Source of the DNA: Tridacna crocea
Lineage: Eukaryota; Mollusca; Bivalvia; Cardiida; Cardiidae
Assembly: GCA_943736015.1 (NCBI GenBank)
Contig: OX031059.1
Span: 54,385,159 to 54,449,158, forward strand
Direction of reading: 5' to 3'
DNA: 64,000 nucleotides
Position numbers and translations under genes: made by a program
The notes under the pieces: model-generated
Told to the model about the DNA's origin: nothing
Seen by the model: the letters and a program-made list of their open reading frames with translations, nothing else
Database searches by the model: none
Shown: positions 195-61,699 of the stretch, piece after piece
Layout of the letters: every line of letters starts with the position of its first letter
How positions within the stretch are numbered: position 1 is the first letter of the stretch

Positions 195-1672
195 CCGTAA
201 TACCCTTGCAATTCCATGGCATTTTGCAGATAAAAGCTTTGAGAGAAACTAGTTGTTTTGGCGGACTCGGCGATATCGAGTGGACACACCGTTCAGCATT
301 TTGTCTGAAAGTAGTCCGGAAAAGGCAACTTACGATCCCTATAGGCAAGGGAATCCCTTGAGAGGGATTCCCTGGCCTAAAAATTAAGTTTTCCTTCTTT
401 GTTCCTATGTTTCGAACTTGTGACCCCTGGGGCAGGGCCATTTTGGACCACATGGACATCATTAGAACAAACTTGGTAGAGGTCAACTAGCAGATGCTAC
501 ATACCAAATGTCAAAGCTCTACTCCTTCTTGTTTCAGAGAAGAACATTTTCAAGTTTTCCTATTTTATTCCCATGTTCGAACTTGTGACCCCCAGGGTGG
601 GGGGCCAAAATTGACCCAAGGGCCTTGTAAGAAAAAAACTTGGTAGAGGTCCAATAGGGGATGCTACTTAAAAAATATCAAAGCTCTACACCTTCTAGTA
701 TCAGAGAAGAAGAACTTTATAGTTTTACTTCTTTAATCCTATGTTTCTAACTTGTGACCCTTGGGGGTGGGGGTGGGGGTGGGTGGGAGTGGGTGGGAGT
801 GGGTGGGAGGGATGAGCAAGCTTTGACCCCAGGGGCATCGTATGAACAAACTTTGTAGAAGTCTACTAAGAGATGCTAAATACCAAATATCAAAGCTCTA
901 GTTTCAGAGAAGAAGAATTTTAAAGTTTTCCTTCTTTGTTCCTATGTTTCGAACTTGTGACTCATGGGGCGGGGCAAGATTTGACCCAGGGACATCATAT
1001 GAACAATTTATGTAGAAGTCCACTAGGGGTCCTACTTACTAAATACCTAAGCTCCGCATTTTCTAGTTTCTGAGACAAAATTTTTAAAAATTTTCCATCT
1101 TTATTTCTGTTTTTAATAACCAGGACTGGGCCAGTTTTGACCCCAGGGACATCATAATTTATGAACAATCTTGGTAGAGGTCCACTAGGAGATGCTACAT
1201 ACCAAATATCAAAAGTCTGCACCTTCTAGTTTCAGAGAAGAAGAATTTCAAAGTTTTCCTTCTTTGTTCCTATGTTCAAACTTGTGACCCTCAGAGCAGG
1301 GCCAGTTTTGACCCAAGGGACAATCATAAGAACAATCTTGGTAGAGGTTCACTAGGAGATGCTACATACCAAATATCAAAGCCTTCTAGTTTCAGAGAAG
1401 AAGATTTTCAAAGATTTTGCTATTTTTTTAGGCCAGGGAATCCCTCTCAAGGGATTCTTTTGCCCATAGCCATCGTAAGCTGCCTTTTCCACACTACTTT
1501 CAGACAAAATGTTGAACGGTGAGTCCACTCTATATCGCTGTTTCCGCCAAAACAACTAGTTCCCCAAGTATACATATACAGATTGCTTTACACACGGTGT
1601 GAATGCTTTCCTTCCTCAAAGCTTTCATCTGCAAAATGCCATGGATTTGGAAGGGTATTACCAGGGGTAAAA
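195..1672. mobile_element. Foldback element enclosing a tandem-core array
   Basis: Long inverted arms of about 200 bp (195-390 and about 1430-1672) share the termini TAATACCCTT / AAGGGTATTA and an inner GGGAATCCCT palindrome. The middle holds about seven imperfect core repeats. It interrupts the outer repeat: sequence before 195 and after 1668 rejoins to match the uninterrupted copy at 12026-12243. Confidence 0.75.
390..1430 (+). repeat. Tandem core repeats, period about 150-160 bp (family H3)
   Basis: Each unit carries the landmarks CTTCTTTGTTCCTATGTTT, AACTTGTGACCCC, GGGCCAGTTTTGACCC, AACTTGGTAGAGGTCCACTA and GATGCTACATACCAAAT, then TCAGAGAAGAAG. The same core recurs at 16740-18370, 26500-27180, 28520-29550 and 33930-34240. 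A (GGGTGGGA)n stretch near 769-810 is a local expansion. The core array and tail resemble the pearl/CvA-type, Helitron-derived elements of bivalves. Confidence 0.8.
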
Positions 1673-3235
1673 GTTAAAGAAATTGAAAATACTGAAAAAT
1701 GAGCTGGGGGCCAGGGGGCTGAGTTTTAGCTATTTTATAACCCTCAAATTCCTCTAATGAGATCCAGTTTTAGTATTTTAAATCTGAAAAAATCTTGAAT
1801 TTAATGAAAGATATGATATGCTAAAACCTAAGAAAATCTTTAAAAAAAGATTGCCCCCCCCCCCCACACACACACACATTCGATCTATATTTTCATTTCA
1901 TAAAACAACAATTTCCTTCACTCAAGACATAATTTTAGCTTCCACTTATTGTTTTATTAAGTAACTTGTGTAAATTCACTGTCTAATTTCATTATTAAAG
2001 ATGAGAAGATGATTTGAAGACCTTCTGATCGGACGATTCCACGCCGATCATTGTAGTGTCATGGGTTTTCACGTTTTTTTTGACGATCAATTTTTCGTGT
2101 CAATTAATTTTTGAAGAAGTATTACTACATGATTTGACATCAGTTAGTCATTTTGAATTGCAGTTAACTTTAAAATCTGTCACTTTACAGTAGATAAGAT
2201 TAACACCTTTGTTACTTTGTCATAAATGGCTCGCCAGATTCATTAGATTATGCGCGTGTCCTTCGCATTTTTTACTGATCGTGTTTAGTCCATATTTCTG
2301 CCGGATGCATGCAAGTTTGTTTAAATGGAGCTCTAGACGATTATTTCACGCGTCAGACAGACCATTAGGCAGATCTTTTTCAGCGTCAAAGACAAGTCAT
2401 TTCAAATTTCCGAGCATGAAAAACCCGGGCTCATGGATCAAATGAGAAACTTGCCGAGTTGTCAAGTTTGTCAAGAAATCCATGGAAAAAAAAATGTTTA
2501 TGATTTTTCCGGCCAATTTTAGTGTTTGTTATCACTATGTTGGATCCTAGAGTGTGATTTTAATGCAAGTCACAAAACCAAACGCTAAAAAGTAATCAAA
2601 GTACTGAAAGTACTCATGGAAGTCGATTTTAGAATTAGATTGAGTAAATGAAGAAATCGTTCCCCCTGGTCTGAAGGTGCGTTCAATTGGATGTGACCAA
2701 AAGTTTCTCATCATGTGCAGAGTGAAATAGTCAACAAAACTCAATACTATTTAAGGTGAAACAGTTAAAGAAAAAGATGAACAGAAACAAAGCTTCTTTT
2801 TTTTCCAATTTAATTTGAAATAAGTATCATCTTCTAGTAACATGAATCGAGTACCACAACAAAATGAATATTATGTAAAGGTAGTTGGAACAAGTGAACA
2901 GTATATTTGTGAATAAACACCTCAATCTCAAGCAGTACATGTCAATACCCTTTCGCACACAATGACGACTTTTGACTACTCTTGGAGAGCAGCTTGAAAA
3001 TACTGTGGCAAAAGTAGAAAACAATTGAATACTAAGTGTTACATTCTTATCCCAGTGCTTTGTCTCAATTCAGACCTGTCAGAAAGGCTCGCAAAAAGAC
3101 TAGGAAGTTTAACTTTGAACTGCATAAAAAAGAAAATGTGGCTGTTATTGCATAATATTTCAAGTGACCAAAACAAAAATCTCAAATTTTTCTTATATTT
3201 TCGAAACATCAAAATAAGTAATAATAGCTTGTAAA
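1673..3235. other. Intergenic/3' flank, no gene recognised
   Basis: AT-rich DNA downstream of the thioredoxin stop. It has a C9-(CA)n simple repeat at about 1854-1880. Small open frames here lack coding character, and no repeat family was recognised. Confidence 0.5.
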
Positions 3236-3710
3236 GATCTTTCTTGAAGGGTAGATAACATTGTGGGAAAAGGTTACCAGCATTTTCTCCTTTTCCCACA
3301 ATGTTTTCTAAAGTCTTCTTTGTCAGGGATCAGTTAAATGCCTTATCACAACAGTGAAGCCCTGTCCCTCTTTGTACTAGGTCACCAGTAGGTCAACAAA
3401 CCTTTACCAGAACTAATCAAAGTGCAGAGGTTCTCTTGTTTTATATGAAAAGGATTACAGATTATGTAAAGCAACCATCTTTAACTCTTTACCAAACGAC
3501 AAAATTTGGGATGTGACCAAACTGAAAGTATTTGCAGACAACAAATTAAACATTAATGAAATGATGATTTCTCTCTTTGATAGAGTAGAAAACACTGAGG
3601 GAAAAGGAGAAAATGCTGATTACCAGCATTTTCTCCTTTTCCAAGAGTGTTTTCCAAAGACTTCCTCTTTAGGGTCGTTAAAAGTCAGGACTGTATGGTA
3701 AAGACTTACC
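3236..3710 (+). mobile_element. Two piggyBac-type MITE copies (one partial)
   Basis: A partial copy (about 3236-3354) has the central palindrome TTACCAGCATTTTCTCC and flanking TGTGGGAAAAG. A fuller copy starts at TTAACTCTTTACCA (3481) and runs to about 3710. The family is described under the 5604-5821 copy. Confidence 0.75.
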
Positions 3711-3759
3711 AGCATAGGAACTAACCTACAATACAACAATGAAATCAAAATGAATGGTA

Positions 3760-4135
3760 TGAGAGAAGAAATTTTTCAAAGATTTTACTTTATACCATAA
3801 AAGGAAAATGAGTCTCCCATAAAAGCCATATTTTTTGACGGATCTTTTTTTTTTTAAGGAATTCTGTAGACTTCTATCTAAGGAACATTCCTGCAAAAAA
3901 AAATAATGCTACCCAATTAGCGGTTTGGGAGGAGAAGATTTTTAAAGGTTTTTACTTTGGTTGCCATGGCAACCAGAATTATTCATGGAACACGATTATT
4001 TGAATGAATTTGAAAGAGGACCACCTAAGGAACATTCCTGTAAAATTTGGTAGAAATCCAGTCCATAGTTTCTGAGGAGAAATATTTTAAAGAAAAAGTT
4101 TACGGACGCCAAACGTAAACGTCTTCTTTTGTAGA
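3760..4135 (+). mobile_element. Helitron-like 3' tail fragment
   Basis: It contains GGTTGCCATGGCAACCAGA, GAGGACCACC..AAGGAACATT and GTTTCTGAGGAGAA, shared with the tails at 18250, 20240, 22350, 38310 and 55050. It lies within about 40 bp of the thioredoxin stop codon and covers the expected 3' UTR in antisense orientation. Confidence 0.65.
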
Positions 4136-4163
4136 GATAAGTCCGAGTCTGCACTGCTGTAGT

Positions 4164-4262
4164 CTAGTGCTTTACGTAGCGGTTCTTAATGATGGTGTAC
4201 TTGTTTTCTGCAATGTATGCCTGCAACTCCCCTTCTACTTGGGAGGATGGCTCCTGGCAAGT
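4164..4262 (-). CDS. TXN: Probable thioredoxin exon 5 (terminal exon)
   Basis: A strong acceptor (11-T polypyrimidine tract then CAG, ends 4263) opens a 32-codon frame, T-C-Q-E-P-S-S ... V-K-H, then TAG at 4164-4166. Phase 0 fits exon 4. The segment V-E-G-E-L-Q-A-Y-I-A-E-N is amphipathic and can replace the last thioredoxin helix (G-A-N-K-E-K-L-E-A-T-I-N-E-L in human). The tail after it is about 10 residues longer than usual, and the strand normally at the exon start is weakly matched. No better candidate was found downstream of exon 4. It could instead end another gene or be an alternative terminal exon. No AATAAA is seen close to the stop; a Helitron-like fragment occupies the expected 3' UTR. 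Confidence 0.55.
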   Translation of the reverse strand, partial: TCQEPSSQVEGELQAYIAENKYTIIKNRYVKH

Positions 4263-7200
4263 CTGAAAAAAAAAAAGCCATTGAAATTTAAAAAAACAAG
4301 AGCCGTCAGAGACGGGTTATGCTCCCCGAACAAGTGCTTGTCATAAAATATAAGAAACTGATATAAATTCACTTCTTTTATCCTAGAAGAACCTGTTCAT
4401 GCCCCCCAAAATTTGAAGTGAAAAGGCAATTACTATCTTAGAGATAGACAACACAAACTTGTAGAGGACAATAAGCCCAATAAGCCCCCTATAAGCCCCC
4501 TTTTCCCATAAGACAATATTGGATCATTGCAATAAATACGACGGGTGTGTGGTTTGTGGCATTTTTTAATAATAATTCAAAATTCCAAATTTCATAAAAT
4601 TTTGAGCAGTCATGTATTAAATATTACATAAAACAATTTTTTACATGAGGCCCCCTTTTTCCGAGACGCAGCCTGAAAATTCCAACAAGTTCAGATTTGA
4701 AATTTCACAAAGTTTTCAGCACTGATAAAGGAGATCCTAGTGAAAAACAATTTTTTCCATGTGGTCCCCTTTTTCCGTGATGCAGCCTTAATTTCAGAAA
4801 CCAGGAAAGACGTATTTGCGCATTAATAATTCACAGATTGCAAAAACAACGGGCACATGTTGAAACTTGTAAAACAAGATATAACCATGAAATGTTGACA
4901 AAAACTGAACAAGATATTAGTAAAAATTGCAATTTTGCATTAGGGCCCCTTTTTCATTTTACAAGAAACCCCCTTTTTCCATGACAGAGGGTCAAATTGA
5001 AAAACACATAGATAAAGAAACAAGAGCACATGGTGAAACTTTGAAAAAACAATATAACCATGAAGTTTAATGAAATTTTGACCAAAACTGAATGAAATAT
5101 TAGTAAAAATTGGAATTTTGCAAGAAGCCCCCTTTTTCCATGACAGAACATCAACTTAAAAAATGCCCAGATTAAAAATAGCAAGGGCACATGCTAAAAC
5201 TTTCCATAAACAATATAACCATGATGTTTCATGATATTCTGACAAAAACTGAATGAGATATTGGTAAAAATTGCAATTTTGCATTAAACCCCCTTTTTCC
5301 ATGACACGGGGTCAAATTGAAAATCCAGGAAAATCATATCCGCGCCTTACCCTAAGGAGTTCATATATGAAGTTTCATCCAATTTGGCCCAAGGGTTGTG
5401 GAGAAATCGCTTCGGACGGATGGACGGACGGACGGACAGATGGACGGACAGACGAAGCAGCGACTATATGCTCGCCCTTTGGGGAGCATAAAAAAAAGCG
5501 TAAAATGAATTTTCTTTTGAAAATCAAACAAACAAGTTAGTATGAAATTCCCACAAAAATAATATTCTGGGCTTTTTTTCACACATAATTTGTGTTAGTA
5601 GCAGTTAACATTACCAAACAACAATATTTTAGGTTTGCCCAAATCAAAAGCATTTGCAGACCAAAAAATAAAAGTAACTGAAAATTTGAAATTTGTTTTG
5701 TGGAGGGTAGAAAACATTGTGAGAATGCTGGTTACCAGCATTTTCTCCTTTTCCCATACTGTTTTCTAAAAGCTTCTTTCTTAGGGTTGTCAAAAGTAGG
5801 GATTCTGTGGTAATGGGTTGACTATGTTTCCTAATAATCAGCTACAATATGCATTAGCAATGCAAGGATTTTCTGCAGTATCTCTGCACTTTTCTTGATC
5901 TATGCCCATTGAAATTAGAATTTCTGGTGATAATGAAAATATATAATTTGAGTCACAGTTACTTTGAGAATTTTAGAGAATCACAGTGGTTCTATTATTT
6001 TCAATAGCAAATGACTGAGGAAACAAGTGAGTCAAGATAGCCCTATTTCAGTCTCCTGAAAAAGAATGTTGAATTATCATCAATGCTGATACACCAATAA
6101 GAATGTCCCAACATGTTAGTAAACAAACGGCATAAGATCAATCTTTTTCCAGATCTTACGTTGGGCCATATAAGGTCTGAAAGAGATTAACTCATTACCC
6201 AAATGACAATATTTTAGGCTTGTCCAAATTGAAAGCATTTGCAGACCAAAAATAAAAGTGAATGAAAATTTGAACTTTGTTTTGTGAGGGGTAGGAAATA
6301 TTGTGGGAAAAGGAGAAAATGCGACTTACCAGCATTTTCTCCTTTTCCCACAATGTTTTCAAAAGGCTTGTTTCCAAAGGTCGTCAAAAGTAGGGATTGC
6401 GTGGTAATGGGTTAACTTGAGGACAATACTGTCGAAAGTTTAATTATCCTTTTACATCTTAGTGATTCTGTTAAAGATACTGAAAGCCAGTTTGTTACAT
6501 TGCTTTTCTGGGCTTTGTCAAATACATGTAGAACTTCAGGAGCAACATATAAATGTGCTTGTGCTAATGGTGAACAGACACACAATAGTCAAAATACCAA
6601 CCCATCACAACTGTTCACCATGAGCACGAGGGATAACCTGGGAAGACGAGAGTGGATTTAATACCTTAATTTCAGTCTTTGTTTTGGTTGACACTGACAT
6701 CTCGTCTCTATATGTTTTGACAACAACAATTGTTAGCTGTATGTATTGACCTATTAGGTTCTTTAAACTCATCTCCCTCCACTCCCTCCAGAGTGACATC
6801 TTTAAGTCATCTGTGCCATCTTGAGATCTTAACTGTCTTGACCTGGACGTCTGTCCCTCTGACCTGCACAATCTTCACAATCTCTTCCTAAAACAGATAC
6901 AAAGAAATATAACCAAATGATAGCCATACAAAAATCTGAACAGTATTTAACTTAACATTCTTCTTTTATCAAAGATGCATATTGTAGATTGATGCAACAT
7001 CAAGTTATTGTCCAATGAATTGAAGAGGGCCTTGATTGTCTAAAATTACCCACCTTACTGTTGAGCAATTTTTTCTTTAACAAAAATGTTTTTCAAAAAT
7101 CTTTTCAAGGGTCAATTTTACCTCTTATGCTGCTGATTTCCCAGAATAGACTATTCCAGATTTGCTTCCGAATTTTAGTCACTGTAAAATTTGCCAACAG

Positions 7201-52200: not shown

Positions 52201-55200
52201 AGCATTTTCTCCTTTCCTGCTATGTTCTTTTTTTTTTCTGTCTGCAAATGGTTTCAGATAGGACCCAAGCCAAATTTCCTAGCATGGTAAAGACTTCCTT
52301 ATCAGGGTCGTTAAAACCAGAGGTTGTTTGGAAAAGGGTTAAATATCACGCAGTCAAGTACAAGTTGTTTAGTCCAGATATTCATGTGGCAATTACGTCA
52401 CTTTCTTAGCGATGATGCAATTAGTTGGAATTAGTCCCCGCCCCTTTTCTACTACCGTATATGCATGGTATTTACAAAGACGAGCTAAAATACTGTTGGC
52501 CGAGCTTCACGTAAACTGGGATATAGGTGTATATAGGTCAAACATTTAATGATTAACGCTATGGTCATAATGTGAAACTGCCGCCTGCCGATTTTTAGAC
52601 ATCGGTGGATTCTTAAAATTACCTGCCGCCGGCCGATTTTTTACAAATCGGTGAGAGTGGTCATAAATAACTGCCAGTAAAAGGCCGCCTGGCGGATTCC
52701 AGGCGGCGGCAGGCAGTTTCTTAAGTTCGAGGGGTGTGGTATGTCATCAGGGTGTCGGCCGGTGGCAGTTAGGCGACAATCCGGCAGCCGTCAGATTTTA
52801 CCTGCCACCGCCCGGCGACCTGGCGGACACCGACCATTTACAACTGACACCGGCCGGCGATCGGGCGTTCGAACTGCCACCGACAGGTGCCCGCCCGATA
52901 ATCTGACGGCGGCAGGCTGGTTTACGGGGAATATATATAGCTAGATTGCTCTCGTATCACTACAAAGTGTTCTTCATTATTATCAACCACAAGATAAATA
53001 GTCTAATTTTTAAGAATTTTTTCCTTCCAACAAGTTGCCCCCTAAAGACAAGGGGCAAGACAAAGCGCCAGTACCGAAGCGCAAGAGACCAGAGCTCAAC
53101 CCAGCAATATGCAAGTCTCTGAGTCGCCCTGGTGCTGTTAGAATCGCCATGACGACAATTTCTTATTGTGAATAGCCTCGGATTTATATTCAGGGGCCGG
53201 GAGTCTGCACTCGGCAGATCGCTATCCTGCCACCTACCAACACCGACAGCCGCCTTCCATCTGCTTTTCAATCTCCGCCCTGCCGCCGGCAGGTATTTTG
53301 AAATCGCATGGTGGCATGTCGGTAGCATAACGGTAGCAGGCCGGATGCTGGAGAGTGGCAATTAGTTCCTACCGATCGCCGGCCGAAGATTAAAGGCCCT
53401 CGAACCCCTTGACGACCGAGTAAAAATCGCTCTGCCGCCCGTCTGCCGCTTGATTGCCACCGCGTGACCACGAAATGCGCCCGGCCTGCGCCCTGACAAC
53501 AGCCACAATTGGAAACAAGAGGGCCAAGATGGCCCTGGATCGCTCACCTGAATTTTTGAGATGACCATAGTCTATTTTTTTTTTTGAGGTACTGAAACAT
53601 TGGAACCAAATTTATAATTTTGCCAAGCAATTTTCAAAAGGTCACCTGTAAAAGTCATTTCGAAATCTGACCATCAGTTTCAAAAAGAAGAATTTTTAAG
53701 AATTCTTCATTTCTGTATAAGAGCAAGTAGCCCCCATCCACGAGAGCCATGTTTCTTGATGGATCAAAATTTACAAACAAGTTTTGAAAAGGGTCACCCA
53801 AGGAACATCTCTCTGAAATTATTTCAAAATCTGACCAGGGGTTTCAGAGAAGAGAGAATTTTAAAGAATTTCATCATGTCCGTATAGTGCAAGTAGCCCC
53901 CATTCACAAGAGCCATGTTTCTTGATGGATCAAAATTTACAAACAAGTTTTGAAAAGGGTCACCCAAAGAACATCTCTGTCAGATTATTTTAAAATCTGA
54001 CCACGGGTTTCAGAGAAGAAGAATTTTCAAGAATTTCTTCATTTCCATATAGTGCAAGTAGCCCCCATTCACTAGAGCTATGTTTCTTGGCCAATCAAAA
54101 TTTCGCGAACAATTTTAAAAAAGGGTCACCCAAGGAACATCTCTCTGAAATTATTTCAAAATCTGTCCAGCCATTTCAGAGAAGAAGAATTTTCAAGAAT
54201 TTCTTCATTTCTGTATAGTGCAAGTAGCCCCCATTCACCAGAGCCATGTTTCTTGATCAATCAAAATTTAACAAACACTTTTTGAAAAGGGTAACCCAAG
54301 GAACAAGTCTGTGATATTAATTTAAAATCTAACCAGCTGTTTCAGAGAAGAAGATTTTTTAAGAATTCCTTCATTTCTGTATAGTGCAAGAAGCCCCCAT
54401 TCACCAGAGCCACATTTTTTGACGGATCAAAATTTCACGAACAATTTTTGAAAATGGTCACCCAAGGAACAAGTCTGTGAAATTATTTCAAAATCTAACC
54501 AGCTGTTTCAGAGAAGAAGAATTTTTAAGAATTTCTTCATTTCTGTATAGTGCAAGAAGCCCCCATTCATCAGAGCCATGTTTCTTGACCAATCAAAATT
54601 TCGCGAACAATTTTTTAAAAGGGTCACCCATGGAACAACTCTGTGAAATTATTTCAAAATCTGACCAGCGGTTTCAGAGAAGAAGATTTTTTACGAATTC
54701 CTTCATTTCTGTATAGTGCAAGAAGCCCCCATTCACCAGAGCCACATTTTTTGACGGATCAAAATTTCACGAACAATTTTTGAAGAGGGTCACCCAAGGA
54801 ACATATCTGTGAAATCATTTCAAAATCCGACCAGCGGTTTCAGAGGAGAAGATTTTTAATGAATTCCTTCATTTCTGTATAGTGCAAGAAGCCCCCATTC
54901 ACCAGAGCCACAATTTTTGACGAATCAAAATTTCACGAACAATTTTTGAAAAGGGTCACCCAAGGAACATATCTGTGAAATTATTTCAAAATCCGACCAG
55001 CGGTTTCAGAGGAGAAGATTTTTAAAGAATTTGCTAAAAAATTCCATTTTGTTGCCATGGCAACCAGAGTTTTTGATGGAATCAAATTCTGTGAACAATT
55101 TTTAAAGAGGACCTCCCAAGGAACATTCCTGCCAAGTTTGGTCCAAATCTGCCCAGCGGTTTAGGAGGAGTTGATGTTTAAAGAATTGTTGACGACGCAC

Positions 55201-57693
55201 GACGGAAGACGGACACCGGGTGATCCTAAAAGCTCCCCTTGAGCACGTTGTGCTCAGGTGAGCTAAAAATCGGCCAGTGGCAGTCAGAATTTTAACTTTT
55301 TCTTAAAATTTCAGCGGCGTCCTAGCGGCATCTAAAATGCCGCCTGCCGATTGTGCCTGCCACCGAGCTGCCACAGGTCGAATTTGAGTGAAAACTGGCA
55401 GTTACCACGCTGGCAGGCGGCATTTACTGATTTGTGACCGTAGTATAAGTGGCCACATATTGCAACATACTGAGTCTGTATGGAATTAAATCAAGCAGTT
55501 TTGAACGAAATTCAGCTTTTTCATTGGTTTAGAAAGTAGGGCAAACTGTAAATCTTCTACAAATAGGTGTGTACTGTCTTGTAAAACAGAGACTGCAGTC
55601 ACAACCCTTTACCTAATTACCTCTACCATCAATTCATAAATGCTTCATAATTTTCATTTAGATCTGAACTGCACTGTGGAAATCTTTACTTCAGTTAGGT
55701 TACTTGTCAAATTACATCATAATTCATCACAATGCCAAAACGTATCAATTAGAACGCATGTGATTTTGAAAAAAGTAATGATTCATCTTTGAATTTTAGA
55801 ATCGTCGAAAGGGTCATTCAGTAGACCATACTTTTATCCGTACTACAGGGAACTAGTGGGCCATATATGAACTGACTGAAACTGTGAGAGGAATAACTGC
55901 TCGGTTGAATAAATTTTAATCTAAACTAACTAGTACAACACGAAAACTCTGTGTTATAAACTTTTATTTCTTCACACAATGGGTGATAATAACAACTATT
56001 ACTTAGTCACTTATAGCTTTAGATTAGAGCGACTCGATTGTGAGGTGTCTTTTCCTTCGTGCTGATCAGCAGGTAAGTTCGTTCTTCAGATGAAATTTCA
56101 CAAGGTCCTTTGATTATGCGCTTATAAGACGCTCCCGCAACTTCAAGCTCAAAATTCTAGGGGAAAAATGTGTCTTATAGTCGAGCATATACGGTAGATA
56201 ATTGCATACTGTACCATACATTCTTATTGATTTTTTTTATGCCACAAAATTCGTATGGACCTCACGTAATTGGTACAGCGTAACGGGCACCTACTGGTCC
56301 CATGCAAGAATGTCTGAAATTGGCAAATAAGTTGACAAATATGAAAAATTGGACATTAATATCGCTAGGCAAGTTAAATAATATGTTTTTCAATATAAAA
56401 AAAAAAATACAACATATTGCACATTTTGGTATGGCATGTTTTATCTGTATGGCCTATGGTATGGCCTATTTTTCTGGTATGGCGTGTTTAACCCATTACC
56501 AAACAACAATATTTTAGACTGGTTCAAATTGAAAGCATTTGCAGACGACAAAATAAAAGTGACTGCAAATTTGAAATTTGTTTTGTGAAGGGTAGAAAAC
56601 ATTGTGGGAAAAGGAGAAAATGCTGGTTACCAGCATTTTCTTCTTTTCCCACAATGTTTTCTAAAGGCTTCCTTTTCAGGGGCGTCAAAAGTAGGGATTG
56701 TGTGGTAATGGGTTAAGTAGAGCCTCAAAATACTGTAAAAATGACCCATAGTTGTCAAATTATGGAAAATCTTATCGAAAAATCTTTATTTAGCCTAATA
56801 GTTAAGCAAAGGAAAACAAAAAGTGTATATTGGGTGCAGTGTAGCAAAGAATGAGGTCGCTTACACAAACTAGTAGATCAAAATAAGAAATAAGAAGGGC
56901 ATCAAAACTGATGAGCGTCAAAACATGATCGGATAATACTATATATGGCCTTTTCTCATTTCTCCGTTCATTCTAGCTTCTCCATTCATGTACTAAAACG
57001 GTAGGAATAAGCGCTTGTGACATTTTGTTCCACACTGGTTCTATTCTACTTGGTCAGATATTATGCATAACATCCTATCCTACATCGAAAGTATTTTTCT
57101 ATCAAATAAGATGCAAAAAGTGCAATAAAAGTGAGTAATTTTCACAGTTTGAAAGAAAATATTTCATTAGATACAATAAAAAGCAAATTTTCGATGTTTT
57201 TCAAAAGTAAATACGGCTAAATGGGTTGCGTTTACCCTTTACTCTGAATAAGCTTGTCCGTCTGATCTAGAGTTTAGAATATTCATCAGTCTTTAGCGAC
57301 CAGCTTTGACTTTCAATCAAATGAATTGAAAAATGAGAAAGTGGCCATACAACCCAGGTTGGTGAGGTGGGTTTGAAAAAATCCCCGGATCGAACCTTTT
57401 GATGCAAGTTATGTGACAATTTTTCAGTTACAAGTTTAATTCAGGTTTTATATTTGATCATTGCACAAAAAAATTTGATTCCTTGTCCAAATATGTGAAT
57501 TTTGTGAGCTTATTTACGCTTAGGTGAACGGAGAAAGGAGAACACAATATACATGTAGGCTACGACTTTTCCTGAGGCCGATAGTGTTATCATCACCAAC
57601 ACGAGGAAAAACGAAGCCTGATAAAATTGAAATTCGAAAGAAAAAAAGATTAAAAAAATATATACTTACCTTAGTGTCAACCTTTAGTACCAT
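4164..57693 (-). CDS. TXN: Thioredoxin gene, five exons spanning 53.5 kb
   Basis: Joined minus-strand exons 57693-57670, 45940-45842, 27517-27458, 22725-22660 and 4262-4164 give a protein of about 115 residues. It is a thioredoxin: a protein-disulfide reductase that passes electrons from thioredoxin reductase to target proteins, with no signal peptide or membrane segment visible, so probably cytosolic/nuclear. Seen in sequence: buried Asp about residue 24, the WCGPC redox motif at about 29-33, the VDVDEN strand, and the MPTF segment holding the cis-proline. All introns are phase 0 with GT-AG borders, and the cut points match the vertebrate TXN exon pattern as I remember it. Vertebrate TXN has about 105 residues. 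Exons 1-4 are secure; exon 5 is less certain. Introns of 11.7, 18.3, 4.7 and 18.4 kb are filled mainly by mobile elements. The structural Cys just before MPTF in vertebrates (Cys73) is Ala here. Confidence 0.88.
4295..5496 (+). mobile_element. Helitron-like tandem-core element, family H6 (copy 1)
   Basis: It starts AACAAGAGCCGTCAGAGAC and ends CTTTGGGGAGCATAAAA. It has 140-150 bp core units with CCCCCTTTTTCCATGACA and a GACGGACGGACGGACAGA tetranucleotide run before the tail. A second near-full-length copy lies at 14366-15612. It begins about 30 bp upstream of the exon 5 acceptor. Confidence 0.85.
5604..5821 (+). mobile_element. piggyBac-type stem-loop MITE
   Basis: Family description: about 225 bp, termini CCCATTACCA...TGGTAATGGG flanked by TTAA, internal GAAAGCATTTGCAGAC, and a long central palindrome (GGGAAAAGGAGAAAATGC, TGGTTACCA, GCATTTTCTCCTTTTCCC). 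TTAA duplications with CCC/GGG ends are the piggyBac signature. This copy has somewhat degraded ends. Confidence 0.8.
6187..6415 (+). mobile_element. piggyBac-type stem-loop MITE
   Basis: TTAACTCATTACC at the left, GGTAATGGGTTAA at the right, central palindrome intact. Confidence 0.85.
6665..6887 (-). pseudogene. OB-fold-like exon with a frameshift
   Basis: An exon-like block on the minus strand has an acceptor (GTTTTAG ending 6888) and a donor-like GTATTA after 6665. The first frame reads E-E-I-V-K-I-V-Q-V-R-G-T-D-V and continues to about residue 21. A neighbouring frame then carries Q-D-G-T-D-D-L-K-M-S-L-W-R-E-W, followed by I-G-Q-Y-I-Q-L-T-I-V-V-V-K-T-Y-R-D-E-M-S-V-S. The two halves join only with a one-base net shift near 6820-6826. 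Alternating beta strands with DG..LK and LWREW resemble an OB fold of the RPA single-strand DNA-binding type; this is recognition by pattern, not a search. The length of 223 nt is not a multiple of three. It may be a decayed captured exon or a remnant of an RPA-like protein encoded by a Helitron/Helentron. Confidence 0.5.
7377..7564 (+). mobile_element. piggyBac-type MITE, half of the palindrome deleted
   Basis: TTAACCCTTTTACCA and GGTAAAAGGTTAA ends are present, but only one arm of the central hairpin (GTGGGAAAAGGAGG) remains. Confidence 0.75.
7744..7977 (-). mobile_element. piggyBac-type stem-loop MITE, reverse orientation
   Basis: TTAACTCTTAAGACTACC at the left and GGGAAAGAGTTAA at the right, with the internal landmarks in reverse orientation. 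It shares its right TTAA with the next copy. Confidence 0.8.
7974..8199 (+). mobile_element. piggyBac-type stem-loop MITE abutting its neighbour
   Basis: It starts with the same TTAA that ends the preceding copy and ends GGTAATGGGTTAA. The opposing orientation and shared TTAA make an abutting pair. Confidence 0.85.
8268..8462 (+). mobile_element. piggyBac-type MITE, 3' truncated
   Basis: GACTCTTTACCACACAAC start, central palindrome present, right end lost near 8462. Confidence 0.75.
8735..9569. mobile_element. pogo/Tigger-type non-autonomous DNA transposon
   Basis: Inverted ends CAGTCAAACTTCGGTAGCTC and the complement of GAGCTACTGAGGTTTGACTG. TA target duplications lie at 8733-8734 and 9570-9571. 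It is 835 bp with no transposase frame. CAGTCAAACCTC-type ends and TA insertion are typical of Tigger/pogo relatives. Further inner inverted GTTCGA-rich motifs lie at both ends. Confidence 0.88.
9572..11275. other. Intron 4 sequence without recognised genes
   Basis: AT-rich; contains a short GGCCGAAATTG/GGACGAAATTG repeat run near 9778-9825. No coding or RNA gene recognised. Confidence 0.5.
11280..11634 (+). repeat. Dispersed 355-bp repeat, copy 1
   Basis: Reverse-complement copy at 60445-60800. Shared landmarks are CCCGCTAGATGGCATTCTAT, ACTTTCCTACGCGTCAACCG, CAGCCCGCTTTCCGGGCTAG and TCTTCGAAGAATATGACATG. There is no coding frame; it is probably a short transposon family. Confidence 0.85.
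11920..11941 (+). repeat. Poly-C tract
   Basis: About 20 consecutive C. Long C or G runs recur at 12499-12513, 12721-12738, 48718-48731, 48840-48848 and 63426-63434. Confidence 0.9.
12026..12243 (-). repeat. Right arm of ~200-bp inverted repeat pair
   Basis: Reverse complement of 1-194 plus the short segment resumed after 1668. It ends near the TTAA of the following MITE. Confidence 0.85.
12243..12472 (-). mobile_element. piggyBac-type stem-loop MITE, reverse orientation
   Basis: TTAACCCTTTCC left, GGGAAAGGGTTAA right, intact central palindrome. Confidence 0.85.
12474..14197 (+). mobile_element. Helitron-like tandem-core element, family H7
   Basis: It begins AAGCAATTTCGTTGAAATG. Core units (about 13080-13770) carry CATGAAGCCCCCTTTTTTC, GTCACATGAT and AAGAAATGTGGGAGGAGTTG. 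An ACGGACAGATGGACAGA-type run and CTGCCTGTGGCAGGGGATAA tail hairpin close it. Confidence 0.75.
14198..14365 (+). mobile_element. Second H7 5' end, truncated
   Basis: It repeats 12474-12650 with few differences (AAGCAATTTCGTTGAAATG, GACCTTTTTTGATAC, GAGGTATTGTGTT). It starts exactly where the first H7 ends and is cut by the H6 copy beginning at 14366. Confidence 0.75.
14366..15612 (+). mobile_element. Helitron-like tandem-core element, family H6 (copy 2)
   Basis: It starts AACAAGAGCCGTCAGAGAC and ends CTTCGGGGAGCATAAAAA, collinear with 4295-5496. The tetranucleotide run GACAGACGGACAGACAGACG lies just before the tail. Open frames across it come from the core repeats. Confidence 0.85.
15690..16015 (+). 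repeat. Two diverged hairpin repeats
   Basis: Blocks near 15697-15770 and 15948-16008 share AGCTCRGCAGACAT and end TTTCTCCTTTTCCCACA. They look like decayed relatives of the piggyBac-type MITE centre. Confidence 0.5.
16144..16215. other. Near-perfect 28-bp stem-loop
   Basis: Arms 16144-16171 and 16188-16215 pair over 28 positions with two mismatches, around a 16-nt loop. The arms contain ACACTGGCAGGCCAGTT and its complement. Size fits a pre-miRNA-like hairpin or a tiny foldback element; expression is unknown. Confidence 0.8.
16446..16672 (+). mobile_element. Helitron-like tail related to H7
   Basis: Shares AAGTGAAACTTAAAATCGCT and TTGTACATGCGTATAAAGTT-type motifs with 13950-14060, and ends CTTCGGGGGTATAAAAA. 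Confidence 0.65.
16735..18476 (+). mobile_element. Helitron-like element, family H3, with about ten cores
   Basis: Long array of the H3 core (see 390-1430). It is followed by the tail GGTTGCCATGGCAACCAGAG, CACCAAAGGAACATCC, then CACCATGAGCACTTTGTGCT and CAGGTGAGCTAAAA. Open frames in all units are repeats, not genes. Confidence 0.85.
18600..18920 (+). mobile_element. Decayed H3-related fragment
   Basis: Single degenerate core (GGGGCAGAGCCAATTTTCAC, GATAGAGGTTCATTAG) and partial tail, ending where the next element begins. Confidence 0.6.
18921..20462 (+). mobile_element. Helitron-like element, family H1
   Basis: Starts AACAAGAGGGCCAAGATGGC, a palindromic 5' end. Core units of about 165 bp carry TTCATTTCTGTATAGTGCAA, GTAGCCCCCATTCACCAGAG, GGGTCACCCAAGGAACAT and AAATCTGACCAGCGGTTTC. 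The tail ends GTTGTGCTCAGGTGAGCTAA. Full copies of the family also lie at 21207, 36942, 44322 and 53515. Confidence 0.88.
20463..20862 (+). mobile_element. Two short Helitron-like tails
   Basis: The first ends GGCCTTTGGCCAGTTGAGCT. The second (about 20600-20862) has the GGGGCAATAACTC / GTTATAGTTCTTGT landmarks of family H5 and ends GGTAGGGGGTATTAAAA. Confidence 0.65.
20950..22637. mobile_element. Foldback MITE split by an H1 element
   Basis: The left arm (about 20950-21035) pairs with a right arm split into 21178-21208 and 22587-22637. Matching pieces are ATGAAAAATAACACTCTA and CTTTATCCTTCTAGA. Between the two right-arm pieces sits the H1 copy. The left arm supplies the empty insertion site. 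The outer end is about 20 bp from the exon 4 donor. Confidence 0.82.
21207..22587 (+). mobile_element. Helitron-like element H1 nested in the foldback
   Basis: Starts AACAAGAGGGCCAAGATGGC and ends GTGCTCAGGTGAGCTAAAA. The empty site reads CTCTTGAAAAAGGC, so insertion was within an A/T run, as expected for Helentron-type elements (T-T target). One core unit is shortened near 22080. Confidence 0.88.
22660..22725 (-). CDS. TXN: Thioredoxin exon 4 (cis-Pro segment)
   Basis: Twenty-two codons, E-T-A-E-A-Q-E-I-S-A-M-P-T-F through F-F-K-D-G-T-K. The MPTF motif carries the cis-proline that faces the active-site disulfide. The acceptor is TATAG (ends 22726) and the donor GTAATT (starts 22659). Length and phase match vertebrate TXN exon 4. 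The position of vertebrate Cys73 is Ala. The donor lies about 20 bp from the end of an inverted-repeat arm (about 22587-22637). Confidence 0.96.
22822..23640 (+). mobile_element. Helitron-like element, family H8
   Basis: Palindromic start AGGGCCATGATGGCCCT. About four core units of about 155 bp carry AGTAGAGGTCCACAATATAA, TACGGCTCCAGAATATGTGG and AAAGGCCCTGTAAAACAT. The repeated reverse-strand frames here are core-repeat artefacts. Confidence 0.8.
23641..24555 (+). repeat. Mixed Helitron-like fragments
   Basis: A segment at about 23830-24110 is duplicated at 28140-28440 (GGAAGGCCAGGCATTAA, GACTTGTCTCARTAAC). Remaining parts resemble H6/H7 cores (CCCCCTTTTTCCATGACAT). Confidence 0.6.
24556..26442 (+). 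mobile_element. Helitron-like element, family H2, about 12 cores
   Basis: Starts AACAAGAGGGCCATGATGGC. Units of about 145 bp carry TGACCTAGTTTTTGACCC, CATGACCCATTTTCAAACT, GGCAAACATTCTGACCAA and GTACACAAGGTTTTTCTA. It ends with GCTCACCATGAACACTCCGT and AGGTGCGCTAAAAA. Confidence 0.88.
26443..27185 (+). mobile_element. Helitron-like H3 core array
   Basis: About four H3 cores, introduced by ATTGTTATTGGCAGACTATC as at 16680. The tail is missing; a piggyBac-type MITE follows. Confidence 0.75.
27192..27414 (+). mobile_element. piggyBac-type stem-loop MITE
   Basis: CCCATTACCACATAAC start, GGTAAAGGGT end, central palindrome with few mismatches. Lies 43 bp from the exon 3 donor. Confidence 0.8.
27458..27517 (-). 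CDS. TXN: Thioredoxin exon 3
   Basis: Twenty codons, E-M-A-K-E-F through V-D-V-D-E-N-S, covering the second helix and the third strand of the thioredoxin fold. The VDVDEN motif is typical of thioredoxins. The acceptor is ACACAG (ends 27518) and the donor GTAAGT (starts 27457). Phase 0 on both sides and the 20-codon length match vertebrate TXN exon 3. A piggyBac-type MITE ends about 43 bp downstream of the donor, and a truncated Helitron-like element begins about 25 bp upstream of the acceptor. Confidence 0.95.
27541..27700 (+). mobile_element. Truncated H2-like 5' end
   Basis: Degraded palindromic start (GGTTATGATGGCCCC) and CTCACCTGTG, TTTTGACTAAACATGA, then CCTCTATAGGGTAGACAAG as in H2 units. 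Starts about 25 bp from the exon 3 acceptor. Confidence 0.55.
27701..28078. other. Intron 2 sequence, nothing recognised
   Basis: AT-rich with a T-rich run near 27945-28060; no gene or repeat family recognised. Confidence 0.5.
28079..28450 (+). mobile_element. Helitron-like 5' end with duplicated 23.8-kb segment
   Basis: Starts AACAAGAGGACCATGACGGT. Then it matches 23830-24110 closely. Confidence 0.65.
28455..30972 (+). mobile_element. H3 element split by an hAT-like insertion
   Basis: H3 cores at 28520-29530 lead into TTTTGGTTGCCATG, are interrupted, and resume at 30763 with TTGCCATGGCAACCAGA and the normal tail ending GGTGAGCTAAAAATG. The copy at 16735-18476 shows the uninterrupted order. 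Confidence 0.88.
29555..30762. mobile_element. hAT-like non-autonomous transposon, 1.2 kb
   Basis: It is flanked by an 8-bp duplication TTGCCATG (29547-29554 and 30763-30770). Ends are CAAGTTTGGC and, complemented, CAAGGTTGGG. Subterminal arms are rich in GGTTTTAACCGGTTAAAACC and TATTGACCAG. There is no transposase frame. An 8-bp duplication with C-A..G ends fits the hAT superfamily. Confidence 0.88.
31059..32616 (+). mobile_element. Helitron-like element, family H4, preceded by a short 5' end
   Basis: After a stub (AACAAGACGACCATGATGGT), H4 starts near 31168 (ACAAGAGCGGCAAATTGTCG). Units of about 155 bp carry AACTTGAAATGGCTACTTTT, CCCATACTGTTTGTTGGATT and GACTTTATCGCGTAAACAAG. It ends with GACAGACAGACGGACGGAAG, CATGACATAAGCTCTGCTGG and CCAGTAGAGCTAAAAA. 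Confidence 0.85.
32617..33290 (+). repeat. H5-like fragment and two units of another core
   Basis: 32617-32930 has H5 landmarks (GAGTTATGGTTCTTGTGCAC). 32935-33285 holds two 170-bp units with CCAGTCTGATTATACCCAT and CAAGTCTGGTGCTGATTGG. Confidence 0.65.
33291..33790. other. Intron 2 sequence, little recognised
   Basis: The first 80 bp resemble a worn H3 core (TTTTGGTAGAGGGCCACTAG). The rest is AT-rich with no gene or repeat recognised. Confidence 0.5.
33791..34540 (+). mobile_element. Helitron-like element, short H3 copy
   Basis: Starts AACAAGAGGACCATGATGGT, has about two H3 cores, and ends with CATGCATCCATGCATGGACG, GGGCCATGACATAAGCCC and CCAGTGGAGCTAAAAA. Confidence 0.8.
34759..34983 (+). 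mobile_element. piggyBac-type stem-loop MITE
   Basis: TTAACTCTTTACCACACGG and GGTAATGGGTTAA ends; intact palindrome. Confidence 0.85.
34984..36132. other. Intron 2 single-copy-like DNA
   Basis: No repeat family recognised. Several overlapping open frames on both strands (35325-35980) lack splice context or a recognised domain. Confidence 0.45.
36133..36455 (+). repeat. Tandem duplication of a ~160-bp unit
   Basis: Two units (about 36133-36294 and 36295-36455) share CATCATAACTGTAA, ACAGAAAAGTAACAA, TACGTCAATGCA and ATATCTGAAAGACACC. The unit does not match the Helitron-like cores. Confidence 0.8.
36456..36829. other. Intron 2, possible short open frame
   Basis: A plus-strand frame at about 36569-36781 (N-V-K-D-V-I-D-R-E-L-R-C) has fairly protein-like composition but no recognised family or splice sites. 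Otherwise nothing seen. Confidence 0.3.
36830..38532 (+). mobile_element. Helitron-like tail followed by full H1 element
   Basis: A tail (36830-36940) ends GTTGTGCTAAGGTGAGCTAT. H1 then starts with CAGGAGGGCCAAAATTGCCC, a palindrome with changed bases, and runs through about eight cores to GTGCTCAGGTGAGCTAAAAA. Confidence 0.85.
38533..39026 (+). mobile_element. Short Helitron-like copies, one with an internal H1 deletion
   Basis: A stub starts AACAAGAGGACCATGATGGT. Then an H1 copy (about 38670-39026) jumps from the first core directly to the tail (TTAGAGCAAGACCTCCCAAG), so most cores are deleted. Confidence 0.75.
39027..39738 (+). mobile_element. Helitron-like element, family H5, four cores
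   Basis: Units of about 155 bp carry AAAATTAAGTATGAAAATCA, GGGCAATAACTC, GAGTTATGCTCCGGAC and TTCTTGTGCACTGCACTTCT. Ends with GACTGACCGACTGATCGACC and AAAGGGGGGTATAAA. Confidence 0.82.
39807..41895 (+). mobile_element. Helitron-like H4 element with short 5' stubs
   Basis: Stub at 39807 (AACAAGAGGACAATGATGGT) and GAAGGCCCTGATGGGCCTGA repeats at 40076 and 40165 lead into about nine H4 cores. Tail CATGACATAAGCTCTGCTGG, then GTAGAGCTAAAAG. Confidence 0.8.
41317..41566. mobile_element. 250-bp MITE inserted in an H4 core
   Basis: Flanked by the 8-bp duplication GTTGAAGC (41309-41316 and 41567-41574). Inverted ends have CTCGGACACC / complement CTCGGATACC, and inner arms have TATTTGCTACGCTACATCG and GACCCCTGGGAC. 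The neighbouring H4 cores give the empty site. Confidence 0.85.
41896..42593 (+). mobile_element. Further H4 cores
   Basis: About four H4 units without a clear start or tail; ends where the GTAATC-rich element begins. Confidence 0.75.
42594..42860. mobile_element. GTAATC-rich repeat, MITE-like
   Basis: Dense GTAATC/GATTAC words (GTAATCTGTAATCGTGATTA) starting CAGACCTGGGGTCATTG. It interrupts an H4 core after TTGATAAG. The right boundary is unclear. Confidence 0.55.
42864..43405 (-). mobile_element. Two piggyBac-type MITEs, reverse orientation
   Basis: About 42864-43034 (central part deleted) and 43183-43405 (intact hairpin, GGAGAAAATGCCCGTAACC). Confidence 0.7.
43470..43775 (+). mobile_element. 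H4 3' portion
   Basis: Two cores plus the tail with CTGACTGACAGACGGACAAA and CATGACATAAGCTCTGCTGG, ending TTAGAGCTAAAAAAGG. Confidence 0.75.
43931..44313 (+). mobile_element. Two adjacent piggyBac-type MITEs
   Basis: The first (43931-44092) is 5' truncated. The second (44088-44313) starts at the first one's right end (GGGATAACCGTTTACCACAC). Both have the central palindrome. Confidence 0.78.
44322..45392 (+). mobile_element. Helitron-like H1 element
   Basis: Starts AACAAGAGGGCCAAGAGGGC, has about five cores and ends GTGCTCAGGTGAGCTAATAA. Confidence 0.85.
45585..45828 (+). mobile_element. Helitron-like tail next to exon 2
   Basis: Contains GGAAACAAGTTCTTTGCC, ACAAAGGCCACTGCGCCATG and ends GGCCTTTGGCCAGTGGAGCT, 13 bp from the exon 2 donor. 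Confidence 0.7.
45842..45940 (-). CDS. TXN: Thioredoxin exon 2 (WCGPC active site)
   Basis: Thirty-three codons, beginning D-E-F-L and ending G-P-K-F-E, with the redox-active WCGPC at exon residues 21-25. The acceptor ...ATTTCAG ends at 45941 and the donor GTATAT starts at 45841. The fold elements are the first helix, the central strand V-A-V-D-F-T-A-T and the active-site helix; the reactive N-terminal Cys and resolving Cys are both present. The open frame runs on into both introns, which is fortuitous. A plus-strand Helitron-like element ends about 13 bp beyond the donor, and a foldback repeat begins about 30 bp before the acceptor. Confidence 0.96.
45970..47068. mobile_element. Intronic foldback element with 165-bp arms
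   Basis: Arms 45970-46140 and 46880-47068 are inverted copies sharing CTCCCAAAGCCTT, CCAGTAGTCGAAAACCATCC and AACAACAAGAGAAATTA. A reverse-oriented piggyBac-type MITE (46371-46589) sits in the spacer. The left arm starts about 30 bp from the exon 2 acceptor. Confidence 0.85.
46371..46589 (-). mobile_element. piggyBac-type MITE nested in the foldback
   Basis: Reverse orientation; ends slightly worn (CCTTTTACCACATAATC, GAGAAAGAGTT). Confidence 0.75.
47069..48165. other. Intron 1 sequence, little recognised
   Basis: A MITE scrap lies at 47070-47120 (TTTCTACCCTTCC). The rest is AT-rich without recognised genes or repeats. Confidence 0.5.
49417..49603 (+). mobile_element. piggyBac-type MITE
   Basis: TTAACTCTCTACCAAACG and GGTAAGGGGTTAA; the central palindrome is mostly lost. 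Confidence 0.7.
49734..49958 (-). mobile_element. piggyBac-type MITE, reverse orientation
   Basis: TTAACTCTTTACCAAATAATC start and TTTGGTACAAATTTAA end; hairpin present with changes. Confidence 0.75.
50013..50242. mobile_element. TTAA-flanked stem-loop MITE, divergent subfamily
   Basis: Exact TTAACCCTTTAC and GTAAAGGGTTAA ends at 50013 and 50242. The central palindrome reads GGTGAAATTGCTCGTGACGA, different from the main family but organised the same way. Confidence 0.82.
50619..50751 (-). CDS. Unrecognised terminal-exon-like segment
   Basis: The minus strand is open for about 47 codons, with E-L-G-N-F-Q-N-G-K-P-A-Y-F-W-A-M in the first part and D-E-G-Y-D-G-Y-H-H-P-W-Y-A-K before TAA at about 50619. 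Two acceptor candidates exist: TTTTGTAAG near 50745 or ATTTTCAG near 50726. The composition (Trp, His, Tyr, Pro, Gly, paired Cys) looks like real protein rather than AT-rich noise. I do not recognise the family. It lies inside a nested transposon block in thioredoxin intron 1, so it may be a captured or relic exon. No partner exon upstream was identified. Confidence 0.3.
50970..51264 (+). pseudogene. Frameshifted ORF of unknown function
   Basis: ATG at 50970 (context CAAATGG) opens M-E-T-I-V-I-R-T-R-L-E-V and stops at 51036-51038. A frame overlapping it continues with protein-like sequence (S-A-M-D-T-C-F-E-L-V-E-D-E-K-F-Y-R-E-F-I) to about 51264. A single small indel near 51030-51040 would make one frame of about 98 codons. 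An E-box-like TCACGTGA lies about 20 bp upstream of the ATG. The 3' end runs into a pogo-type MITE starting at 51259, which may have truncated it. I cannot assign a family. Confidence 0.3.
51259..52140. mobile_element. pogo/Tigger-type MITE, 882 bp
   Basis: Ends CCATAAAACGATGTGTATAA and, complemented, CCGTGTTTTGGTGTGTATAA, both leading into CACGCA. TA on both sides (51257-51258, 52141-52142). Confidence 0.85.
52150..52344 (+). mobile_element. Worn piggyBac-type MITE
   Basis: Residual hairpin (GGAGCATTTTCTCCTTTCC) and a right end GGAAAAGGGTTAA. Confidence 0.6.
52559..55443. mobile_element. GC-rich terminal-inverted-repeat transposon split by H1
   Basis: Ends CTATGGTCATAA and, complemented, CTACGGTCACAA, both leading to GCCGCCTGCC. 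The body is packed with GCCGCC / GGCGGCAGGC / CCGGCCG words and is much richer in GC than its surroundings. H1 (53515-55268) interrupts it. Open frames reflect GC content; no transposase seen. Confidence 0.8.
53515..55268 (+). mobile_element. Helitron-like H1 element nested in the GC-rich element
   Basis: Starts ACAAGAGGGCCAAGATGGCC, has about nine cores and ends GTGCTCAGGTGAGCTAAAAA. No target duplication is seen around it, as expected for Helitrons. Confidence 0.88.
55552..56193. other. Interior of the TA-flanked element, nothing recognised
   Basis: AT-rich with the TIR-adjacent CTTATAAGACGCTCC motif near 56130; no coding exon assigned. Confidence 0.45.
56488..56716 (+). mobile_element. 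piggyBac-type stem-loop MITE
   Basis: TTAACCCATTACCAAACAAC and GGTAATGGGTTAA, near-consensus copy. Confidence 0.88.
56717..57669. other. Intron 1 5' part, nothing recognised
   Basis: AT-rich, apparently free of the repeat families seen elsewhere. The plus-strand frame at 57524-57721 overlaps exon 1 in antisense and is not a gene. Confidence 0.5.
57670..57693 (-). CDS. TXN: Thioredoxin exon 1 (start codon)
   Basis: Eight codons, M-V-L-K-V-D-T-K, followed directly by a consensus donor GTAAGT on the minus strand (57669-57664). Length, phase 0 and character match the first coding exon of vertebrate TXN (M-V-K-Q-I-E-S-K). It lies 11.7 kb upstream of exon 2. The start is chosen because it is the only ATG in frame with the short exon and it joins in phase to exon 2. 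The exon is too short to show as an ORF. A GC-rich promoter-like sequence lies directly upstream. Confidence 0.82.
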
Positions 57694-57699
57694 TTTATT

Positions 57700-60444: not shown

Positions 60445-60800
60445 CGTTGTCTGCGCATGTCATATTCTTCGAAGATTCGACTGTCTTATATGATGCATCA
60501 CTACTAGCCCCGAAAGCGGGCTGACTGTACGTTCTATAAAGTAGCAATGTTGAAAATAGCCTTTACGTATCAATACGTTTGAGGAGAAATGAGACCTGTT
60601 TTAGCAACAGATTTCTCTAAACTGGTGATAGATGAGTGAATTGCACGAGGTAGCGTTTTATTGGGTAAACCTTTTTTTTTTTGTTTGTTTTAAATTTAAA
60701 GTAACGGTTGTCGCGTAGGAAAGTGGTTCGATTCTGTACCCAGGATGCCCATATCAGATAGATGAGTATTTATAGAATGCCATCTAGCGGGAGATAATGC
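60445..60800 (-). repeat. Dispersed 355-bp repeat, copy 2
   Basis: Reverse complement of 11280-11634; differs by scattered substitutions and a T-run near 60670. Confidence 0.85.
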
Positions 60801-60833
60801 CTCTCATGTAGCACATGGCAGCCAGGGTCCTGT

Positions 60834-61031
60834 ATAAGCCCTACTCACCGACCATTCCTAAGAACATTCTTAAATTGTTCTTATTCTTCAAGATTTCCTG
60901 ACCATGAAAGTAACAGGACTTCTGATTGGCTAAACCATTTGGTTTAGCCAGTAAGAAGTCCTGTTACTTTCACATTGACAAAATACTGAAGAATAAGACT
61001 ATTCTCAAGAATGGTTGGTGAATACGGGCCC
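60834..61031. mobile_element. Foldback MITE with GGGCCCGTATTCACC-type end
   Basis: Almost the whole element is an inverted repeat: CACCGACCATTCCTAAGAAC pairs with the right arm ATTCTCAAGAATGGTTGGTG, and GAAAGTAACAGGACTTCT pairs with AGAAGTCCTGTTACTTTC around CCATTTGG. Confidence 0.85.
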
Positions 61032-61351
61032 ACGTGACCTTATTCCCTAGTTTCCGGCCAAGTCGCATGATCTTTCCCGCGGTGTTCTTTCTTTTTTTGA
61101 ACGAAATAATTTTTTTCCTGCATAGATTATTCAGCTAAGTTAAAAAACATCATCTGCAATAAAATCATTAGATTAAGAAAATATTAATGCGTAGCGGAAC
61201 CCATATATAGCGGTCGTCAATGGCGCCGCAAAGTTGTTTCTGAAATAAGGTACATTGCAATATTTCAAAATGACCAAAGTAAGTTTTGCAGAGCTCGGTG
61301 AGAAATGAACTAAGAAATCCTAAAACAATCTTTGGGATTCAATATAAAACT

Positions 61352-61699
61352 TTAAAAAAAAAAAAAAAAAAAAACGACAACTAGAGTTATCGTTAAACGT
61401 GATTACATCCCCACCAGCTCGATCCCTCATTGTCACAAAACAGGCCACAGAATGCAGAATGGTTTAGTACAAAAGTAAGGGTAGAAAAAAAAGTTCAAGG
61501 GGAGATAATGCCATAACAAATCGCAGTAGGATCATGGAAATTGCTCATATTTATAGGGACTCTGTGTGTAAATTTGAGTACAATACGTGAAAAACTGTAG
61601 GAGTATTGCTGCGGACAAATTTGCGACTAAGGACAGACGGATGGATAGACAGCCATGGCGATTCCAGTATACCCCCCTCCACTACGTTGTGGGGGTATA
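61352..61699 (+). mobile_element. Short Helitron-like element
   Basis: After an A run (61352-61374), starts ACTAGAGTTATCGTTAAACG. GGACAGACGGATGGATAGAC and the tail hairpin CCTCCACTACGTTGTGGGGG followed by TATAATAA close it. Plus orientation. Confidence 0.7.

Follow-up and report, generated by a model that had tools for sequence, protein, structure and literature searches.

Given that tandem-core repeats filling a minus-strand thioredoxin-type gene of the giant clam Tridacna crocea all point the same way, we asked what fixes the orientation of such repeats relative to the genes that hold them. The stretch analyzed, referred to here as the window, is 64 kb long (C4:54385159-54449158 in a 1.049-Gb assembly), and its repeats are HINEs, non-autonomous Helentron elements, which are a known kind of element. 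At the 14 exon-anchored loci holding HINEs outside the window, HINE orientation matches host-gene strand, and on the sampled contig C1 it is locally uniform over ~50 kb. These observations suggest either that transcription helps to choose the strand that is entered or that wrong-way copies are very efficiently removed.

The assignment to HINEs follows from the layout of ten elements (E1-E10), which is that of the HINEs of mites, flies and oysters in the available parts of the descriptions (PMC4067079, PMC7492417); in the oyster Cg_HINE, a tandem core lies between a left flank containing a subterminal inverted repeat (subTIR), an inverted repeat and a GTCY-type microsatellite and a right flank containing a subTIR and a palindrome (PMC7492417). 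Read on the minus strand, a typical element of the window starts with TTTTAGCTCACCTGA or TTATGCTCCCC and ends with an inverted copy of the start sequence, a palindrome and then CTCTTGTT. A tandem core and a microsatellite lie between the flanks, a GTCC-type microsatellite being placed near the left end, and the cores have periods of ~145, 151, 155-157, 161-163 and 166-167 bp (Tandem Repeats Finder). SubTIRs of 10-14 bp are present in six of the ten elements (matched in at most 1 of 200 shuffles), are degraded to 6-7 bp and not significant in E3 and E5, and were not detected in E9 and E10, which join ends from different families and, judged from these ends, look composite. The palindrome is positioned 6-8 nt before the 3′ end in eight elements, with E2 and E9 failing the strict test; nine end in CTTGTT (CTTG then TT), while E8 ends in CCTGTA; and a T adjoins the 5′ end in nine and the 3′ end in eight. 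A canonical Helitron (5′ TC, 3′ hairpin and CTRR, AT target) was also considered and was rejected, as 0 of the 10 elements start with TC. The longest stop-to-stop frame among those listed in the window spans 155 amino acids, and no transposase was found there. The PF14214 domain (Helitron_like_N) was matched at 32 places in the genome, in open frames of up to 2728 amino acids, which makes it plausible that a RepHel-type enzyme able to mobilize HINEs is present in this genome, with a candidate partner indicated by these domain and frame matches.

Under the HINE convention, what the initial annotation of the window had taken for 5′ ends must be read as 3′ ends, which puts the 5′-to-3′ direction of the elements on the minus strand, with the gene; the earlier description of them as antisense to the gene was an artefact of naming. 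The one-way orientation itself was borne out. On the strands as first read, a loose structural scan for an ACAAG-type end plus a palindrome gave 28 matches on the plus strand and 1 on the minus strand, compared with 1-5 on both strands together in each of 10 shuffles. Of the 28 matches, 15 were selected by eye as HINE 3′ ends, all on the plus strand, and an end at 14366, missed by the scan because of its mutated stem, brings the number of recognized ends to 16, of which 15 fall between the outermost mapped exons of the thioredoxin-type gene. A BLAST library of 27 pieces taken from the window, which misses unrelated HINE families, covered 27,411 bp of the window on the plus strand and 0 bp on the minus strand, so the overlooked minus-strand copies that might have undone the pattern were not found with it; nor did any inverted self-BLAST match in the window involve a tandem core. 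The same library covered 2,371 bp on the plus strand and 0 bp on the minus strand in the 100 kb to the right. HINEs make up 42.8% of the window, compared with 11.9% of the 100 kb on its left and 2.4% of the 100 kb on its right, values in which the window-derived library favors the window. Nine of the ten ends quoted originally lie within five bases of ends located here (4295, 14366, 18916, 21208, 24559, 33790, 36941, 44318 and 53514), and at the tenth, 61378, only a tail at ~61590-61710 was recovered. The piggyBac-like miniature inverted-repeat transposable elements (MITEs) in the window occur both ways, as had been noted.

The relation to gene strand was then read at PDZ exons elsewhere in the genome. 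The exon search returned 82 matches, and 30 loci of ~3.2 kb each, in genome orientation (11 checked), were examined, with a HINE within 1.5 kb of a PDZ exon being counted as that gene's. HINEs are present at 14 of the 30 loci, at a density of 7.0% across the loci, and all 19 of 19 clusters follow the exon strand, with the element 5′ to 3′ in gene sense, instead of the equal numbers of sense and antisense copies in other genes' introns that would speak against a link to gene strand. For strong clusters (E ≤ 1.4e-13), agreement is 10/10 in about seven genes after look-alike loci are collapsed; this set leaves aside L037, L039 and L040, look-alikes of L036, and the weak matches L024, L040:1381 and L047 (E 1.6e-5 to 5.5e-5), all of which also agree with the rule. 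L021 and L046 probably represent one gene, as do L025 and L028. The MITE motif at the same loci is found 34 times in sense and 30 times in antisense. On C1, the three PDZ exons with an end of the HINE family H3 within 50 kb all agree (3/3, among the matches listed). A search for fn3 exons gave 143 places, those on C1 having no listed HINE end within 100 kb. The loci L036, L037, L039 and L040 (C13:31.10-31.45 Mb) are look-alike PDZ-exon loci on one strand, with HINE pieces at matching positions, and are probably the result of a recent tandem gene amplification.

Genome-wide strand counts are roughly balanced for the families H2 (4485/4744), H3 (1066/1231) and H1 (506/573) and for the MITE (28119/27919), and order appears at the level of neighbors. 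Neighbor agreement was computed on C1 among the matches listed there (H2, 100; H3, 100; MITE, 100; H1, 89, with 11 of 100 dropped as lying on C2; a second repeat control, 81), and the counts that follow have this scope. H2 orientations form 32 runs, compared with an expectation of 51 (7 of 100000 shuffles). For pairs no more than 50 kb apart, agreement is 69/83 in H2 (reached in 0 of 20000 shuffles) and 20/21 in H3 (3 of 20000), and pairs from different families agree in 15/16 cases within 20 kb and 33/41 within 50 kb. When all HINE pairs are pooled, agreement is 59/69 up to 20 kb, 129/156 up to 50 kb and 74/114 at 50-100 kb, and H3 pairs at 100-200 kb are at chance (13/22). MITE control pairs agree in 101 of 201 cases, and MITEs agree with HINEs within 50 kb in 24 of 51; for the second repeat control, 5 of 8 pairs within 50 kb and 8 of 15 pairs with HINEs are the same, too few to weigh. 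By arithmetic from the pooled pairs, ~0.90-0.92 of copies would obey the rule if all near pairs share one gene, which is a low estimate because some pairs straddle genes. The link between orientation and gene strand proposed for the window is thus upheld both at the PDZ loci and by the agreement of neighbors across families.

We favor a model in which HINEs insert into the single-stranded non-template DNA of transcribed genes, and we place its probability at about 0.5. A rolling-circle (HUH/RepHel) transposase would mobilize the elements, cutting the target where it is single-stranded, at a TT step, and joining the element to it. Where a gene is transcribed, the strand open to this reaction would be mainly the displaced non-template (coding) strand, made available in R-loops, in the transcription bubble or in the negatively supercoiled DNA behind the polymerase. 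Since the moved strand would have a fixed polarity, it would be written into the coding strand such that the element ends co-directional with the gene, the orientation observed. All element families would be expected to obey the rule regardless of internal sequence, while cut-and-paste MITEs, which need double-stranded targets, would escape it. By analogy, the model fits the dependence of the Helraiser transposase on single-stranded DNA and the enrichment of its insertions in promoters and in the bodies of genes, which is stronger for highly expressed genes, as given in the available text (PMC4778049). A skew in target bases was considered as the cause and set aside, because runs of at least four T (457) and of at least four A (481) are nearly equal in unmasked window DNA. 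We hold a little more tentatively, at somewhat under even odds, the wider proposition that in an animal transcription guides the strand choice of Helentron-type transposition, so that element orientation preserves, genome-wide, a fossil record of the direction in which the germline transcribed.

The serious rival to strand-guided insertion is orientation-specific selection, which we consider possible but distinctly the less probable account: insertion would be unbiased, and wrong-way genic copies would be purged as a source of harmful RNA signals when read in gene sense, the proposed signals being poly-U tracts, purine-rich enhancers, (GGAC)n arrays and cryptic exons. In other systems, intronic retroelements are known to be biased in orientation, which counts in favor of selection. 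In the ten elements, T-runs (56:11), GAAGAA (44:20) and GGAC (50:21) are richer in the disfavored than in the favored reading, for which reason selection has to be taken seriously. The poly(A) and splice signals to which the initial annotation had tentatively attributed such purging gave no support in simple scans: AATAAA/ATTAAA occur 12 times in each reading, and, with position weight matrices, acceptors number 0.72 per kb in both, while donors number 0.46 in the disfavored and 0.85 in the favored reading. Selection would also have to account for a bias common to families with different cores, for MITEs without bias and, on the pooled pairs, for the removal of some nine in ten wrong-way copies, and a gene region in which 27.4 of 64 kb is HINE DNA does not look purged. 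Should selection nevertheless be the cause, its strength against one orientation would, in our judgement, be unusual for a DNA transposon.

Two further explanations were considered. Replication-fork direction might set orientation, as for bacterial IS200/IS605 elements entering the lagging-strand template, and both the lagging-strand entry established for prokaryotic HUH elements (PMC5371812, in the part available) and the regionally uniform orientation observed here accord with it. Agreement among the listed matches fades within 50-100 kb, however, and the 19 of 19 clusters at scattered loci that track gene strand would need tight co-orientation of genes and forks, so with a correlation length of ~50 kb we regard replication as improbable. 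Still more improbable is that local duplication or end-to-end re-insertion multiplied one orientation. Two end-to-end junctions do occur in the window (36941 and 38533), but matches among the 600-bp flanks of the ten elements are short and repeat-like (≤216 bp), besides the overlap of two adjacent flanks, many core types are involved and different families agree as neighbors; the unshared flanks and this agreement together make duplication unlikely as the cause.

Several observations weigh against strand-guided insertion or narrow its reach, in addition to the motif asymmetry described above. At the PDZ loci, 11 matches from the loose structural scan accord with the rule and 6 oppose it; of these 17, the six with a true (A)ACAAGAG end are all among those in accord. 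Among the matches listed, one PDZ exon located 86 kb from an H3 end breaks the rule, H1-H1 pairs agree in 7 of 11 cases, which is not significant, H1-H3 pairs at 50-100 kb agree in 3 of 9, and H2 pairs at 100-200 kb agree in 45 of 127, below the 62.9 expected; this last shortfall is unexplained and perhaps reflects alternating gene strands or chance. The one clear exception to the gene-strand rule is a wrong-way HINE at -40996..-39206, between two exons of a second thioredoxin-type gene left of the window; the left flank also contains pieces on the minus strand, as first read, at -47593..-46249 and -25803..-25091. Library coverage in the left 100 kb is 8,289 bp on the plus strand and 3,624 bp on the minus strand, so the rule is weaker there, and the loose scan gives 11 plus and 7 minus matches in the two flanks together, most of which are not HINE-like. 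The gene-strand result comes from one domain family in about seven genes, plus the window. Finally, INE-1, a Helentron relative, lies in both orientations in Drosophila introns (PMC5624886, available part), meaning that Helentrons do not all obey the rule.

The thioredoxin-type gene is represented on the minus strand by an exon with the WCGPC motif at 45842..45943 (PF00085, E=1.1e-7), by exons at 27458..27517 (VKFIKVDVDENS) and 22660..22725 (EISAMPTFRFFKDGTK), and by a putative last coding exon at 4167..4262 with a stop at its end, with which the gene probably terminates if, as we infer, this exon belongs to it. The second gene of this type is found on the minus strand as well, 35.7-42.3 kb beyond the left edge of the window (L006-L007; -42345 to -35662 in window coordinates). 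The right flank contains a third match, thioredoxin-like but weaker, on the minus strand at 81830-82000; together the three perhaps form a gene cluster. A plus-strand open reading frame at L001:2455-2727 may encode a protein resembling the DMRT/doublesex type.

By the HINE convention, all elements of the window are on the minus strand, including those, such as E1, that had been seen on the plus strand. Family H1 is represented by E1 (4295..5491, 161-bp core) and E2 (14366..15609), and family H2 by E3 (18916..20462, 166-bp core), E4 (21208..22585), E8 (36941..38532, with element fragments attached end-to-end at either side), E6 (44318..45392) and E7 (53514..55268, upstream of the mapped exons). 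E5 (24559..26443) has a 145-bp core. The apparent composites are E9 (31165..32615), with an H3-type 3′ end, a 155-bp core and the 5′ end of another family, and E10 (39806..41896), with a 3′ end, a 155-bp core and a 5′ end. Less complete are a piece with a 157-bp core containing (GGAC)n and a 5′ end (13000..14200); pieces with a 167-bp core and 5′ ends (16440..18500); a 3′ end with a 151-bp core (22818..23700); an H2-variant 3′ end with a 167-bp core, possibly composite (28078..29600); a partial H2-variant 3′ end (33790..34539); two 3′ ends, at 38533 and 38609, with a 156-bp core and a 5′ end at ~39725 (38533..39760); and a 5′ end only (61590..61710). At 36930-36945 and 38500-38540, neighboring elements of like orientation meet directly, 5′ end to 3′ end. 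At 193-1660, a 167-bp HINE-type core is flanked by long inverted repeats (197-243 with 1615-1661 and 247-383 with 1425-1561), which looks like a terminal-inverted-repeat element that has incorporated a tandem core. Tandem repeats with a 30-bp unit, and others related to them, lie at the right edge of the window (63418-64000); they are rich in CCCC/GGGG and apparently continue into the right flank.

A near one-way gene-relative rule, obeyed by several families and not by MITEs, would point to transcription as the source of the single-stranded DNA that Helitrons find in a eukaryotic target; if this holds, HINEs would allow the direction of ancestral transcription in the germline to be read from sequence alone. 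In the literature searched, as far as its text was available, we recognized no report on Helitron or HINE orientation relative to host genes, and the accessible parts of a wheat Helitron study (PMC13286980) and of PMC1431729 and PMC4426361 contain no gene-orientation result. For rice introns, no strong orientation bias of transposable elements is described in the available text (PMC7145194).

Compared with systems known from sources likewise available in part, the elements described here resemble Cg_HINE of Crassostrea gigas in having a tandem core between flanks and a core orientation fixed relative to them; for the oyster elements, TT/T-rich insertion, no target site duplication, both orientations and no gene-strand relation are reported, whereas here gene strand predicts orientation (PMC7492417). 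Drosophila DINE-1/INE-1 elements, which are likewise non-autonomous and related to Helentrons, frequently lie in introns and have subTIRs and a 3′ palindrome (PMC4067079, PMC5624886); they differ in the two-way placement of their intronic copies. Helraiser and the bat Helitrons share a rolling-circle transposase dependent on single-stranded DNA but are canonical, AT-inserting Helitrons for which the text available gives no gene-relative orientation bias (PMC4778049). IS608 and the IS200/IS605 family also transpose through HUH chemistry on single-stranded DNA, and their orientation records the single-stranded state of the target; these elements are bacterial, and the record they keep is one of replication rather than of transcription (PMC5371812).

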